Assembly: GCA_005880615.1 (NCBI GenBank)
Contig: VBID01000131.1
Location: 1-33,821, forward strand
DNA from: Chloroflexota bacterium
Lineage (GTDB): Bacteria > Chloroflexota > Dormibacteria > CF-121
DNA: 33,821 bases
Direction: 5' to 3'
Shown: piece by piece, positions 22,551-28,007 of the stretch
How positions within the stretch are numbered: the stretch's first letter is position 1
Layout: each line of letters opens with the position of its first letter
Translations under genes and position numbers: made by a program
The notes under the pieces: model-generated
What the model saw: the letters and a program-made list of their open reading frames with translations, nothing else
Database searches by the model: none
Told to the model about the DNA's origin: nothing

Positions 22551-23153
22551 ATGAACCCGCGGCGCTTCGATGGAGCGGCCTTTGACGTCGTGGCGCTGGC
22601 GGCCTCCGCGGGGGGCGTGACTGCCCTCAGCCTGCTGGTTTCCAAGCTTCGCCCCGACTTCCCGGCGGCCGTCGTGCTCGTCCAGCATCTTGACCCGCGC
22701 CACCGCAGCCTGATGGCGGACATCCTGAGCCGTCGCACGACCCTTCGAGTGGTCCAGGCTCATGAGGGTGACCAGCTCAGTCAAGGGACCATCTACATTG
22801 CGCCGCCCGATCGGCACCTGCTGGTCAACCCGGACGGGACGCTCTCGCTGTCGCAATCAGAACTGGTCCATTTCCTGCGGCCCTCGGCCGACCTGCTCTT
22901 TGAGTCCGTGGCGGCCAGCTATCGAGACCGCGCGATTGCCGTGGTCCTGACCGGTACTGGCAGCGATGGATCGATGGGCATCAAGGCCATCAAGAAGATG
23001 GGGGGGACGGTGATCGTGCAGGACGAGCAGTCGTCGGAATTCTTCGGCATGCCGAGCGCGGCGATCTTGACCGGGGATACCGATTTCGTCCTTCCCCTGG
23101 ACGAGATTCCGGCGGCATTGGAAACACTGGTGATCCGAGGCATGGTCGCGTGA
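22551..23153 (+). CDS. cheB: CheB methylesterase catalytic domain, no receiver
   Basis: A 200-residue glutamate methylesterase/deamidase domain. The catalytic triad is visible: Ser19 (ALAASAGG), His46 (LVQHLDPRHRS) and Asp in LTGTGSDGSMG near 140. The IYIAPPDRHL and GGTVIVQDEQSSEFFGMPSAAI motifs are typical. Normal CheB carries a receiver domain; this one starts directly with the catalytic fold, as in large CheB-CheR-PAS fusions. The ATG has no strong ribosome site. Its stop overlaps cheR (GTGA). The absence of receptors and CheA nearby suggests it acts on a non-chemotaxis substrate. Confidence 0.92.
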   Translation: MNPRRFDGAAFDVVALAASAGGVTALSLLVSKLRPDFPAAVVLVQHLDPRHRSLMADILSRRTTLRVVQAHEGDQLSQGTIYIAPPDRHLLVNPDGTLSLSQSELVHFLRPSADLLFESVAASYRDRAIAVVLTGTGSDGSMGIKAIKKMGGTVIVQDEQSSEFFGMPSAAILTGDTDFVLPLDEIPAALETLVIRGMVA

Positions 23154-25027
23154 CGACGGTCATACGCGACGAGGCTTTCGAGACGTTGCTGCTTTTCCTC
23201 CGGGAGTCGCGCGGCTTCGACTTCACCGGCTACAAGCGCTCGACCTTGCTGCGCCGGGTCAAGCACCGGATGGACCAGGTCGGAATCTCCAGCTTCCCCG
23301 AGTACCACGAGCACCTCCAGCAGCACCCGGAGGAGTTCTCTTCCCTCTTCAACACCATCCTGATCAATGTCACCAGCTTTTTCCGGGATGCCGAGGCCTG
23401 GGAATACGTCTCCTCTGACATACTGCCCCGGATGACCGCGGCCAAGGGCGCGCACGAACCCATCCGCGCATGGAGCGCCGGCTGCGCCAGCGGCGAGGAG
23501 GCGTACACCCTCGCCATGGTGCTGGTCGAGGCATTGGGGATGAGCCAGTTCCGGGAGCGGGTCAAAGTCTACGCCACGGACGTCGATGAGGATGCGCTCC
23601 GCAAGGCGCGCCAGGGCTCCTTTGTGGAAAAGGACCTCGAAGACGTGCCGGCCGGCTTGCGCGAGAAGTATTTCGAGACGAACGGAGGCCGCTACCTGTT
23701 CCGGGGCGACCTGCGCCGGACGGTCATCTTCGGCCGCCATGACCTGCTGCAGGACGCGCCCATCTCCCGAATCGACCTCCTCGTGTGCCGCAACACTCTG
23801 ATGTATTTCGAAGCCGACACCCAGGGCAGGATCCTGACCCGGCTGCACTATGCCCTGGACGACCGGGGCTTCCTGTTCGTGGGCAAGGCCGAGATGCTCC
23901 GCAGCCGGGACTCCATCTTTGCGCCGCTTGACCTGAAGTACCGTGTGTTCACCAAGGTCGGCAGGCCGAGCATGCCAGAGCGGACGCCGCCGGACACCAT
24001 CGACATTCCAGCCCTCCCCAATCCGCAGGTACGCCTGCGGGAGAGCGCGTTCGATACCGCCCTGGTGGCCCAGATCGTCGTCGATCCCGGCGGCTACCTC
24101 CTGCTGGCCAACGCCAGCGCCCGGCAGCTGTTCGGCCTGGTGGCGGCCGACATCGGCCGGCCAATCCAGGATCTGGAGGTCTCCTACCGGCCGCTCGAGC
24201 TTCGCTCCCGCCTGGACCAGGTGCTGCGCGAGCGCCAGCCCCTGGAGGCCCGCCAGGTAGAGCGCCACCTCGCGTCGGGTGCGACCCAGGTCCTGGACGT
24301 CACGGTCACTCCGCTCCTCGACCCTGCGGGCGACCTCCTGGGTGCCAGCGTGGCGTTCACGGATGTCTCGAACTACAACGCGATCCATGCCCAGCTGGAG
24401 CGGTCCAAGCAGGAGCTAGAGACCGCGTCCGAGGAGCTGCAATCGACGAATGAGGAGCTGGAAACGACCAACGAGGAGCTGCAGTCCACGGTGGAGGAGC
24501 TGGAAACCACCAATGAGGAGCTCCAGTCCAGCAACGAAGAGCTGGAGACCATGAACGAAGAACTGGAATCCACCAATACCCAGCTGCAGGCCATCAATGC
24601 CGAGCTTCAGCAGCGCAGCCTCCAACTTGATCAGCTGAACATTTTTATGGAGTCGATCCTCGCCGGCCTCCGGTCGGGCGTGGTGGTGGTGGGTACGGAC
24701 CTGCGGATCCAGCTCTGGAACCAGCGAGCGGAGGACCTCTGGGGCGTCCGCGGGGAGGAAGTACTCGGTCAATCCCTGCTGACGCTGGACATTGGGCTGC
24801 CGGTGGCGGACCTGGCGCTGCCCATCCGCGATTGCCTCGCCGGAAAGGACGGGGGCTTGCGCGAAGTTGTCCTGGACGCTACCAACCGGCGCGGGAAGAG
24901 CATCCGGTGCAAGGTGATGTGTACGCCCTTGATGGGTCAGTCGGGACCACCCGAAGGCGCCATCCTGCTGATGGAAGACGCCACGGTGCCGAGTCTTGTC
25001 CGTCCCGGCGCAGACGGGTCGCCTTGA
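23150..25027 (+). CDS. cheR: CheR methyltransferase with PAS domains and a long heptad coiled coil
   Basis: A 625-residue protein starting at GTG 23150. CheR N-terminal helical domain (about 5-75), then the SAM-binding domain (AWSAGCASGEEAYTLAMVL; VYATDVDEDAL; LLVCRNTLMYF) to about 275. A PAS-like domain follows at about 295-405, then a coiled coil (about 415-500) of NEELQS/NEELET heptads and a second PAS (about 505-610). In known relatives this order is CheB-CheR-PAS-coil-PAS-histidine kinase in one chain. Here CheB is a separate gene and the kinase is absent: the protein ends just after PAS 2. It should methylate Glu residues of an unknown partner in response to a PAS signal. Confidence 0.92.
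   Translation: MTTVIRDEAFETLLLFLRESRGFDFTGYKRSTLLRRVKHRMDQVGISSFPEYHEHLQQHPEEFSSLFNTILINVTSFFRDAEAWEYVSSDILPRMTAAKGAHEPIRAWSAGCASGEEAYTLAMVLVEALGMSQFRERVKVYATDVDEDALRKARQGSFVEKDLEDVPAGLREKYFETNGGRYLFRGDLRRTVIFGRHDLLQDAPISRIDLLVCRNTLMYFEADTQGRILTRLHYALDDRGFLFVGKAEMLRSRDSIFAPLDLKYRVFTKVGRPSMPERTPPDTIDIPALPNPQVRLRESAFDTALVAQIVVDPGGYLLLANASARQLFGLVAADIGRPIQDLEVSYRPLELRSRLDQVLRERQPLEARQVERHLASGATQVLDVTVTPLLDPAGDLLGASVAFTDVSNYNAIHAQLERSKQELETASEELQSTNEELETTNEELQSTVEELETTNEELQSSNEELETMNEELESTNTQLQAINAELQQRSLQLDQLNIFMESILAGLRSGVVVVGTDLRIQLWNQRAEDLWGVRGEEVLGQSLLTLDIGLPVADLALPIRDCLAGKDGGLREVVLDATNRRGKSIRCKVMCTPLMGQSGPPEGAILLMEDATVPSLVRPGADGSP
24431..24577 (+). repeat. Seven 21-base in-frame units (heptad coiled coil)
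   Basis: Seven consecutive 21-base units beginning GAGGAGCTG or GAAGAACTG encode seven-residue blocks such as EELQSTN and EELETTN inside the CheR-PAS protein. The period of one heptad marks a continuous signalling coiled coil. Protein-level selection explains the repeat; it is not a separate element. Confidence 0.85.
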
Positions 25028-25081
25028 CAACTCGCCGTTCGTGGCGTTTCGGTGGTAAGGTAGCCTCAGGCGAGGCTAGCA

Positions 25082-25642
25082 ATGGCTGATCTGGACCGCA
25101 TGCTGGCGCCGAGTCCCCTCCTGATCGAGGGTGAGCCACTGGACAGTCCGTATGCCGAAGATGCTCAGCAATGGGTAGGCATCTACTCCGAGCTGGTGTC
25201 CTTCACGGGTCGCTCGCTCGCCCGTCAGCAACCTCAGCCGTACCCCTCAGCGGAGCCCGAATGGCTGAAAGCTGGCGACGAGGCGCAGCTTCGGTCCCAC
25301 CTGGAACGCTTGCTCTCCCGCCTCGAATTCTGGCGGCGGCGAGTCCACGACCTGGCCGGTCTCGAGCTTGATCTTGACAGCCGGACGATCTCCTGCCAGG
25401 GCAGGACCGCCCCACTCACCCGGCGCGAGGCGCAGCTGTTTAGCTTCCTGGCCGAGCACCCGGGCAAGTTCTTCTCCGCCTCGCAGCTGATCCAGCGCGC
25501 CTGGCATTCGCCCGAGCTGTCTGAAGAGGAACTGCGCACCTATATCGTGCGCTTGCGGCGGTGCATTCGCGGGCTGGGCGCGCCGTGTGACCTGGTCAAT
25601 CAAGCTCGCCAGGGATACGCCCTGCGTTTTAAGGCCGCCTGA
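25082..25642 (+). CDS. PhoB/OmpR-type winged-helix DNA-binding protein lacking a receiver
   Basis: A 186-residue protein. The C-terminal half (about 95-185) is a Trans_reg_C winged helix: LELDLDSRTISCQGRTAPLTRREAQLFSFLAEHPGKFFSASQLIQRAW, then the recognition helix ELRTYIVRLRRCIRGLG and a wing ending QGYALRF. The first 90 residues are not a receiver. They contain an acidic start, WVGIYSELVSFTGRSLARQQ, and a helical stretch LRSHLERLLSRLEFWRRRVHDLAG that could be a coiled-coil dimer. It follows the CheR-PAS gene by 54 bases and overlaps the next gene (TGATG). It may be the transcriptional output of this cluster, controlled by protein contact and not by phosphorylation. Confidence 0.88.
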   Translation: MADLDRMLAPSPLLIEGEPLDSPYAEDAQQWVGIYSELVSFTGRSLARQQPQPYPSAEPEWLKAGDEAQLRSHLERLLSRLEFWRRRVHDLAGLELDLDSRTISCQGRTAPLTRREAQLFSFLAEHPGKFFSASQLIQRAWHSPELSEEELRTYIVRLRRCIRGLGAPCDLVNQARQGYALRFKAA

Positions 25643-26088
25643 TGAAAAAGGCTCATAGCCGGGGGCCCGCACCCATCGAAGCCGTGGCTCCTCGTATGGG
25701 CCGCATCGTGCCGCTGCGGGCGCCCCCAGCCGGCCCCTCCGCCCGAAGCCTCCAGCCGACCGTGCTCCGGTTGCGCAGCCAGGTGGCGCTCATCCAGGGG
25801 TACGCCGGCCTGCTGGACTCGCTCTCCCCCGTTATGCAGGCCCGGATCTTTATGGCGATCATGAAAACGTCTGAGGAACTCGTCCAATTGCTCGAGCCGT
25901 ACCGCACGGCCGCCGCCGATGCGAAACCAAGCCTCCACGATTACCGCAGCACCCGAATGCGGACGCATCAACTCCTGGCTGAGTACCGTCTCCTGTTGAC
26001 GCAACTGAAGCGAGAGGTCGCCGGACAGCGCTCCCTCGGGGACGCCCTCACCGGCACCGGCGGCCCTCACCCGTCCGCCCCCCGCTGA
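25642..26088 (+). CDS. Small protein resembling a histidine-kinase dimerisation domain without the His
   Basis: A 148-residue protein. The core about 40-90 reads LRLRSQVALIQGYAGLLDSLSPVMQARIFMAIMKTSEELVQLLEPY. That layout is like a HisKA H-box helix (SHELRSPLxxIxGYAELL) and second helix (SSExLxxLLxxY). The position of the phospho-His is Leu, so it could not be phosphorylated in the usual way. There is no ATPase domain. It starts inside the previous stop (TGATG), which shows translational coupling to the winged-helix protein and suggests a protein partner. The remaining helices (about 100-135) are unassigned. Family assignment is from pattern only. Confidence 0.6.
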   Translation: MKKAHSRGPAPIEAVAPRMGRIVPLRAPPAGPSARSLQPTVLRLRSQVALIQGYAGLLDSLSPVMQARIFMAIMKTSEELVQLLEPYRTAAADAKPSLHDYRSTRMRTHQLLAEYRLLLTQLKREVAGQRSLGDALTGTGGPHPSAPR

Positions 26089-26201
26089 TACCGAAGAAGC
26101 CGGTTCGCCGGTCGCGCAAGCCAGCCGCCGCGCGCGGACCAGAGCCATCTGAGAGCGGCGTCGATCTGGAAACGCCGGCCGTCGCGACCCTGGTTGCCCG
26201 C

Positions 26202-27065
26202 GTGAGGCAGCAGGGCGGCGTGGTCCTGGCTGCCTATCGCGATCCCTTTGCCGGCCAGCCGCTGGTGCTGGCTTCGCTCCCTTTGCGCCGGGTCGTGGCG
26301 ACGCCCTTCCAGCGCGATCTTTCCAGGACTCACGCCGATCGGTTGGCGGCCGCCATCGGCGCGGCCGGCGTCTTCCTCGATCCGGTGATCGCGGTCCCCG
26401 CCAAGGACGGATTCTGGTCGCCCAACGGGCGCCATCGGCTGGAGGCCGCTCGCAAGCTTGGCTTGCGCACGGTCACCGCCCTCCTGGTTCCGGACGAGAG
26501 ACTGGCCTATCGGATCCTGGCGCTGAACACCGAGAAGGCCCACAACTTGCGGGACCGCAGCCTGGAGGTCATCCGCATGGCCCGCCAGTTGGCGAAGGAG
26601 CAGCCGCGGACGAAGGAGGACGCGCACGCAGTGACCTTCGAGTCGCCAATCTTCCTCACGCTGGGCTGTGCCTACGCGGAACGCTCCCGCTTCGCCGGCT
26701 CCTCGTACCAGCCGATGCTGCGCAAGGTCGATCGGTTCCTGGACCGAGCCCTCCCGGCCGCCCTGCGCCAGCGCGAGCAATGGGCGGTGCGCCTGATGGA
26801 CATCGATGATCGCGTGGCGGCCCACGTGAAGACCATGCAGGGGATGGGCATGAAGAGCCCGTATCTCCGGGCCGTGGTGGTGGCCCGCATCAATCCGGTG
26901 CGCTGGGTCCCGCCCAGCCGGAAGAAGGACGCCGCGCCCCCCATGTCGATGGCCGAGGCGCTGACCAAGATGGCCGCCAACGTTCGCAAGTTCGATCCGA
27001 AATCGGTCAGGCCTGGCGATCTGGCGCTGGTCGCCGCCCTCTCCCCCGCCGCCGCGGAAGACTGA
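26202..27065 (+). CDS. ParB-like (ParB/Srx fold) domain protein
   Basis: At least 287 residues from GTG 26202. The N-terminal part is a ParB/sulfiredoxin-like fold: PLRRVVATPFQRDLSRTHADRLAAAIGAAGVFLDPVIAVP, then the box II-like PNGRHRLEAARKLGLRTVTALLVP. A mostly helical C-terminal region follows with EKAHNLRDRSLEVIRMA, then about 120 residues that I do not recognise. The start is doubtful. GTG 26202 has no ribosome site, and the frame is open upstream to about 26085 with a basic, plausible segment (IPKKPVRRSRKPAAA). A CTG at 26085 overlapping the previous stop (CTGA) is possible. Role unknown; DNA or NTP binding is suggested by the fold. Confidence 0.75.
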   Translation: MRQQGGVVLAAYRDPFAGQPLVLASLPLRRVVATPFQRDLSRTHADRLAAAIGAAGVFLDPVIAVPAKDGFWSPNGRHRLEAARKLGLRTVTALLVPDERLAYRILALNTEKAHNLRDRSLEVIRMARQLAKEQPRTKEDAHAVTFESPIFLTLGCAYAERSRFAGSSYQPMLRKVDRFLDRALPAALRQREQWAVRLMDIDDRVAAHVKTMQGMGMKSPYLRAVVVARINPVRWVPPSRKKDAAPPMSMAEALTKMAANVRKFDPKSVRPGDLALVAALSPAAAED

Positions 27066-27166: not shown

Positions 27167-27520
27167 ATGGCAACTGATCACCTGAGCGTCACGTTTGCAG
27201 CCCTCGCCGATCCCACCCGGCGAGCGATCCTGGCTCGTCTTGCCCAGGGCGAGGCATCGGTCACGGAACTGGCCAAGCCGTTCGACCTAAGCCTCCCCGG
27301 CGTCTCCAAACATCTGAAAGTGCTGCAGCGCGCCGGCCTGATCAGGCAGAGCCGCAACGCGCAGTGGCGGCCCTGCCGCCTCGACGGAACCCGTCTCAAG
27401 GACGCGGCGGATTGGGTGGGGGACTACCGGCGCTTCTGGGACGAAAGCTTCGAGCGCCTCGACGACGTTCTGCAGGATCTCATCCAGGAGGAGAAGAAAA
27501 ATGACCGAGAAGGGAGCTAG
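27167..27520 (+). CDS. ArsR-family (SdpR-like) transcriptional repressor
   Basis: A 117-residue winged-helix regulator: FAALADPTRRAILARLAQGEASVTELAKPFDLSLPGVSKHLKVLQRAGLI is a complete ArsR HTH, followed by the wing and a C-terminal helix (FWDESFERLDDVLQDLI). There is no metal-binding CxC motif, so it is not an arsenic/cadmium sensor. This type is normally encoded with an AHSA1 protein, as here: the next gene begins 20 bases before its stop. The AT-rich palindrome at 27142-27155 overlaps its promoter, so self-repression is likely. The ligand is unknown. Confidence 0.93.
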   Translation: MATDHLSVTFAALADPTRRAILARLAQGEASVTELAKPFDLSLPGVSKHLKVLQRAGLIRQSRNAQWRPCRLDGTRLKDAADWVGDYRRFWDESFERLDDVLQDLIQEEKKNDREGS

Positions 27521-28007
27521 GACCATGCCCAAGACCGAGTACGTGATTGAACCCGGAAAGCAGGAGATCATCTCAACGACCATCCTCGACGCGCCGCGCG
27601 AGCTGGTGTTCAAGGCGTACACCGACCCGAAGCTGTTCGCACAGTGGTGGGGTCCCCGGCGCTACGAGGTCCAGATCGACAAGTTCGACTCACGGCGCGG
27701 CGGCGAGTGGAGGGTGATTCACCGTGGAGCCGATGGAAGCGAGTTTGGATTCCGCGGCGTCAACCACGACGTCGTTGCGCCGGAGCGGATCTGCGCCACG
27801 TTTGAGTACGAAGGCGTGCCCGGACACGTCGCCCTGCAGACGGCAACATTCGAAGCACTGGGCAACAAGACCAGACTGGTCGCCCACCAGGTGTTCCAGT
27901 CGGTGCTGGACCGCGACGGCATGGTCGCCTCTGGAATGCAAGAGGGCGCCGACGAATCGATGGACCGGCTGGCCGAGCTGCTCGAAACGATGAAGTCCAG
28001 CAAGTGA
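27501..28007 (+). CDS. AHSA1/START-like (SRPBCC) domain protein
   Basis: A 168-residue hydrophobic-pocket protein of the activator-of-Hsp90 ATPase 1 homologue (AHSA1) family. Signatures are TTILDAPRELVFKAYTDPKLFAQWWGPRRYEV, RRGGEWRVIHRGADGSEFGFRG and the final helix MQEGADESMDRLAELLETM. It is translationally coupled to the ArsR repressor (20-base overlap; AGGAGGAG lies 7-8 bases upstream of ATG 27501, while ATG 27525 has its own AAGGGAG). ArsR-AHSA1 pairs are common and probably sense or bind a small hydrophobic ligand. No catalytic function is visible. Confidence 0.92.
   Translation: MTEKGARTMPKTEYVIEPGKQEIISTTILDAPRELVFKAYTDPKLFAQWWGPRRYEVQIDKFDSRRGGEWRVIHRGADGSEFGFRGVNHDVVAPERICATFEYEGVPGHVALQTATFEALGNKTRLVAHQVFQSVLDRDGMVASGMQEGADESMDRLAELLETMKSSK

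Follow-up and report, generated by a model that had tools for sequence, protein, structure and literature searches.

The window analyzed here is positions 1-33,821 of contig VBID01000131.1 from the assembly GCA_005880615.1 of a Chloroflexota bacterium of the class Dormibacteria (3.59 Mb, 90.5% complete; hereafter G000). Its positions 22551-27065 are filled by five open reading frames (ORFs) on the + strand, which encode two carboxyl-methylation enzymes, CheB and CheR-PAS, a winged-helix protein (wH), a small helical protein and a ParB-like protein. All five ORFs were found where a first-pass annotation of this DNA had placed them, and the two gene overlaps that it had described were also confirmed, i.e. 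4 nt between the cheB stop and the GTG start of cheR, and 1 nt between the wH stop and the start of the small-protein gene. The first four genes are as tightly packed as had been stated for the whole group, whereas the fifth is set more loosely, the other gaps being 54 bp between cheR and wH and 113 bp between the small-protein and ParB-like genes.

The cheB gene (22551-23153) encodes a stand-alone protein of 200 amino acids in which Pfam recognized a CheB methylesterase domain (PF01339, E 3.4e-63, residues 14-190) as the only domain, with no receiver domain. The overlapping gene (23150-25027) encodes CheR-PAS, a protein of 625 amino acids that contains CheR_N, CheR (PF01739, E 1e-51) and two PAS domains, and no HisKA/HATPase kinase module was detected by Pfam after the second PAS domain. 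Between the two PAS domains lies a coil (residues 428-476, positions 24431-24577) whose heptad repeat and conservation make it a candidate built-in methyl-accepting segment. The G000 assembly holds one CheB and one CheR. The catalytic triad of CheB is formed by S19, H46 and D139; the His and the Asp are invariant in 63 homologues, and S19 is kept in all 60 homologues that have a residue at that column. The residues of the S-adenosylmethionine (SAM) motif of CheR are likewise conserved in 81 sequences, a set that comprises the window protein and homologues from Cyanobacteria, Actinomycetota, Chloroflexota and others. As judged from these alignments, CheB and CheR-PAS keep intact catalytic residues. 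In many relatives (L025, L026, L027, L030, L032-L035) a second, divergent CheB of about 200-330 amino acids, about 40% identical to the first, is encoded on the opposite side of CheR-PAS, and some cyanobacteria (L125, L137, L140) have two CheB genes ahead of CheR-PAS.

The wH gene (25082-25642) encodes a protein with a C-terminal DNA-binding domain of the OmpR/PhoB type (Trans_reg_C, PF00486, 44 bits, E 1.8e-11) and no Pfam match to a Response_reg domain. In an AlphaFold2 (AF2) model with a pLDDT of 85, the N-terminal region folds as a helical hairpin (residues 25-92, helices 25-48 and 60-92) followed by the winged helix. Foldseek searches with this model retrieved the DNA-binding domains of SaeR, PhoB and VicR with E values down to 5e-6, and a search against viral structures gave nothing informative beyond OmpR-like domains. 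The wH protein shares the fold and sequence of its DNA-binding domain with OmpR/PhoB response regulators and differs from them in that the receiver is swapped for the helical hairpin, which leaves it without a phosphorylation input. In several genomes of the class, hairpins of this type are also encoded as stand-alone ORFs of about 100 amino acids (L037 4664-4957, L033 9136-9444, L035 7523-7825 and L087 12561-12869), possibly as competitors or partners of the regulators. Just upstream of the wH ATG, a 7-bp inverted repeat (TAGCCTC-n4-GAGGCTA, 25061-25078) was read from the sequence; it is a possible operator or promoter element, and wH may therefore have its own promoter.

The small-protein gene (25642-26088) gave no Pfam match, and its product was characterized by gene neighbourhood, by an AF2 model of three helices (pLDDT 69) and by comparison with HisKA profiles. 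Its homologues are encoded directly after the wH gene in genomes of the same family, and the position of the phospho-acceptor His is occupied by I/L/K/R or another residue in 15/15 relatives. Only one of these 15 relatives matched HisKA (E 0.0014, sub-threshold), hhalign against HisKA domains gave P 3e-4 and a probability of 39%, below the usual thresholds, and the model retrieved HK853 in Foldseek with a probability of 0.97 but a nonsignificant E value of 0.43, no match in the fold search falling below E 0.1. The small protein of the window's family may resemble a DHp hairpin in which another residue takes the place of the His. Of the earlier label 'DHp-like', the lack of the His stands and the similarity to HisKA stays below threshold.

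A near-invariant coil of Glu pairs within CheR-PAS

The inter-PAS coil consists of seven heptads (EELQSTN EELETTN EELQSTV EELETTN EELQSSN EELETMN EELESTN) of the form E-E-L-[EQ]-[ST]-[STM]-[N/V], in the register a = N/V, b = E, c = E, d = L, e = E/Q and f/g = S/T. The pattern EExx[AST][AST] occurs in it six times, at residues 428, 435, 442, 449, 456 and 470 in a 7-residue register; 0.2 occurrences are expected in shuffled sequence, and 0/2000 shuffles reached six.

Conservation was compared along the protein in the 81 sequences. The homologues were drawn in part with the pattern E[TQ]A[YS]EELQ, one of two used, which lies just before the coil and leaves columns 432-476 outside, and over these columns the mean majority frequency was 0.967, with 82% of the columns invariant. 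The values were 0.746 and 35% for the CheR catalytic domain, about 0.62 and 12-17% for the PAS domains, and 0.67 and 5% for the helix directly after the coil (481-500), which is as variable as the PAS domains. In a plain coiled coil the exposed positions would be expected to be the most variable; in this coil the exposed positions b, c, e and f reached 0.98-0.99. Positions f and g are almost always [AST] across the 81 homologues, apart from one M position. In distant kinase-fused homologues the Glu residues at b and c stay (0.81 and 0.84), and the value for core position a is down to 0.58. The conserved residues of the coil are encoded by a different codon in 58% of cases, those elsewhere in 61-62%. 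The coil codons diverge normally, which therefore places the constraint on the protein and rejects recent tandem copying as the source of the conservation. By these alignment measures, the coil is constrained at the protein level much more strongly than the CheR enzyme itself. A query with the coil over 61 genomes found it in the CheR-PAS ORFs of 27 of them and otherwise gave one weak match (37%) in G025.

The methylation sites of methyl-accepting chemotaxis proteins (MCPs) are Glx pairs that take the methyl group on heptad position c and are followed by small residues (PMC6829392). The coil has the same layout, with Glx pairs at heptad positions b and c and A/S/T at f and g. The earlier annotation had proposed the winged-helix or the DHp-like protein as the methylated partner, a proposal that was not supported, since neither protein has a conserved Glx pair and the Glu-pair repeat sits in CheR-PAS; as methyl acceptors, both were set aside. 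No conserved Glx-pair motif was present in CheB either. These comparisons leave the coil, which the annotation had not named, as the best candidate substrate of CheR and CheB.

Conservation of the gene cluster and absence of chemoreceptors

Gene neighbourhoods were mapped in relatives of the window, the class containing 41 genomes with CheR-PAS; the close relatives are soil Chloroflexi metagenome-assembled genomes. The wH gene and a small helical gene adjoin cheB and cheR in 35 of the 41, namely in all 15 CheR-PAS genomes of the window's own family (15/15, G000 included) and in 20 further genomes of the class. Four gene orders were seen in total. The window has cheB>cheR>wH>small, and its family member G002 has small>wH>cheB>cheR with the four genes co-directional (locus L037); in most other loci of the family (f1) cheB>cheR> is divergent from wH>small>, and in another family of the class (f3) cheB>cheR> converges on wH>small>. 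Adjacency in four gene orders indicates that the association survives rearrangement. Fourteen additional CheR-PAS loci of the class were fetched only after the pattern had been seen, and 11 of them (11/14) contained the wH/small pair in the convergent order, the contig of one (L209) ending after the small gene, while L217 had neither gene and L220 was cut by a contig end. Among the other genomes, G053 has the genes divided between contigs in an arrangement compatible with the module, G033 carries a PAS histidine kinase instead of the wH/small pair, and neither CheB nor the small protein was seen in G009 and G014. Taken together, these neighbourhoods establish that the genes for CheB, CheR-PAS, wH and the small protein form a real module.

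Co-conservation had been anticipated for all five genes, and it was found for these four and not for the ParB-like one. The ParB-like protein (26202-27065) is 79-88% identical in 15/17 relatives of the same family, where it is single copy and far more conserved than its neighbours, and in those relatives its gene is never near cheB or cheR; it therefore lies outside the module, and its candidacy as a fifth component was rejected despite about 86% identity. The label 'ParB-like' is itself weaker than stated, as there is no Pfam match and the best matches reached only E 0.037 (Noc) and E 0.044 (ParB chain).

Two sequences, GCGTAGTATC immediately ahead of the wH start and CCATGCTAC closer to cheB, are kept in nearly all divergent cheB/wH intergenic regions (L023-L036). 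They look like the -10 elements of divergent, near-leaderless promoters, and the idea that a shared upstream motif is the wH operator was dropped in favour of this resemblance. At loci of genus g4 (L032 5894-11370 and the corresponding positions at other loci of the genus), genes for a Mur-ligase protein, a cyanophycin synthetase and an S51 (cyanophycinase-like) peptidase come next after the module; they are not beside the window module. Downstream in the window (27167-28007), the gene for an ArsR-type regulator overlaps an AHSA1-domain gene, a common gene pair.

Searches of the G000 assembly (90.5% complete) for the MCP signalling domain (PF00015, with positive controls) and for the CheW domain (PF01584) found neither, and the absence of the CheW domain implies that neither CheA nor CheW is present. 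The first-pass view of a system free of receptors and CheA was thus upheld in this assembly. The same absence extends to 26 of the 27 CheR-PAS genomes checked, G000 included, the MCP and CheW domains occurring in the same eight genomes of 61. Because only one CheR-PAS genome, G040, has them (in an MCP/CheW/CheB cluster that is separate and lies on a different contig, C79), CheR-PAS is found where chemoreceptors are absent. Genome G003, which lacks CheB, carries MCP and CheW-domain genes on contigs C7 and C12 and is the only f1 genome with them. With the four genes co-conserved and these domains absent, the general proposal is supported that carboxyl-methylation enzymes and a DNA-binding protein belong to one receptor-free signalling module.

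A possible methylation switch and its alternatives

The CheB-CheR-PAS architecture is already known from annotation and from a kinase survey, which lists CheB and MeTRC as domains of hybrid kinases in Azospirillum (PMC4618731). In the CheB-CheR-PAS (hybrid) histidine kinases, for example those of Azospirillum, Sinorhizobium and Spirosoma, CheB likewise adjoins CheR or is fused to it, and the PAS domains that follow are joined by an E-E-L heptad coil. They differ in having a kinase module, which the window protein lacks; the coil of the latter is near-invariant in its own subgroup, and the output slot is held here by the receiver-less wH and the small helical protein. Closer relatives are the stand-alone CheB and two-PAS CheR proteins of Nostocales, Pseudonocardia, Actinoplanes and other Chloroflexota, which are 52-62% identical over the whole protein (53-57% for culturable homologues such as those of Nostoc or Pseudonocardia), have the same coil and usually have CheB just upstream. 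Where it could be named, their next gene often encodes a PAS-HisKA kinase (cyanobacteria and some Chloroflexota) and elsewhere a REC-winged-helix regulator (L163, Candidatus Aquidulcis) or a STAS-ATPase protein (L194, an Actinoplanes), and in other Nostocales the gene after CheR-PAS is unrelated; the wH/small pair was not found at the loci of these stand-alone relatives. With chemotaxis adaptation the module is expected to share the enzyme chemistry, and in both, Glx pairs at b and c go together with A/S/T at f and g. Unlike that system, the module has no MCP, CheA or CheW, its CheB has no receiver, and its candidate acceptor lies inside the methyltransferase polypeptide and misses the strict consensus at position e. 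No functional study of CheB-CheR-PAS and no mention of the coil was found in the literature searched, which did not cover subscription papers.

The best explanation of these observations, which we put forward tentatively, is a carboxyl-methylation switch that needs neither receptor nor CheA. CheR-PAS would form a dimer that responds to a cytosolic signal through its PAS domains, and its CheR domain would methylate Glu residues at heptad position c of a coil, as in MCPs, either its own or that of its partner. CheB would remove the methyl groups, and the methylation state would alter the charge and packing of the coil and so constitute the stored signal. The wH protein and its translationally coupled, His-less partner would couple the state of the coil to DNA binding. 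Output might occur by protein contact and not by phosphate, a weaker part of the proposal, and the presence in this clade of a receiver-less wH and a small helical protein in the output slot suggests such phosphate independence. Both the methylation of the coil and its link to the wH protein are inferred, the methylation half from strong conservation and the output half from gene neighbourhood. The combined claim that CheR carries its own methyl-accepting helix and here drives phosphate-free transcription through wH and a His-less partner appears conceivable rather than probable.

Several observations weigh against the methylation switch. The search pattern adjacent to the coil favours homologues with conserved coils. 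The full ten-position Alexander-Zhulin consensus, [ASTG][ASTG]xx[EQ][EQ]xx[ASTG][ASTG] (PMC6391922, PMC6829392), is matched nowhere in the coil because position e is E/Q and not A/S/T/G, and a parallel inter-PAS coil differs from the antiparallel four-helix bundle on which CheR is known to act. At one of the additional loci (L218, genome G100) wH lies downstream and co-directional and no small gene is present. In addition, the f1-type and f3-type small proteins could not be supported as one family (hhalign probability 0.4%), so that the small protein does not stand as one conserved component. Finally, G003 (95% complete) keeps wH and the small protein and lacks CheB and CheR, and the pair can therefore work without methylation.

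Inter-PAS and PAS-kinase signal-transmitting coils are well known, and the coil could be a transmitting, S-helix-like element of this kind, with CheR and CheB modifying another protein (wH, the small protein or one outside the module). The unmet MCP consensus also fits this explanation, which we regard as unlikely, since the exposed positions are as conserved as the core, the following helix is as variable as PAS, and the wH and small proteins have no conserved Glx pair to offer. The loci may instead hold two separate units, CheB/CheR-PAS working with an unlinked histidine kinase and wH with the small protein forming an independent regulator. Cyanobacterial relatives seem to pair CheB/CheR-PAS with a linked histidine kinase, in other phyla the gene after CheR-PAS often encodes a PAS histidine kinase, several paralogues of wH are encoded elsewhere in the genomes, and G003 has the pair alone; nevertheless, adjacency in 35/41 genomes of the class and in four orders, including the co-directional arrangement of G002, makes such a separation quite improbable. 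That CheR no longer methylates, CheR-PAS being a structural or ligand-binding sensor and CheB a general amidase or esterase, would agree with the fact that no substrates of these enzymes are shown in the papers found, but the conserved SAM-binding residues and CheB triad render it very unlikely. The adaptation of chemoreceptors is the usual role of CheB and CheR. Nevertheless, adaptation of receptors encoded elsewhere was rejected here as extremely improbable, because no MCP or CheW domain occurs in the 90.5% complete G000 assembly or in 26/27 CheR-PAS genomes and CheB lacks the receiver domain expected for that role.

CheB-CheR-PAS proteins occur in several bacterial phyla, and the near-invariant Glu-pair coil offers a concrete and testable substrate for them, in genomes whose lack of any chemoreceptor takes away the usual alternative target. 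If the methylation switch is correct, reversible methylation of glutamate would serve as a signal beyond chemotaxis, tied in this clade to transcription and not to motility, and the widespread CheR-PAS proteins of Cyanobacteria, Actinomycetota and other groups would likewise contain their own methyl acceptor.

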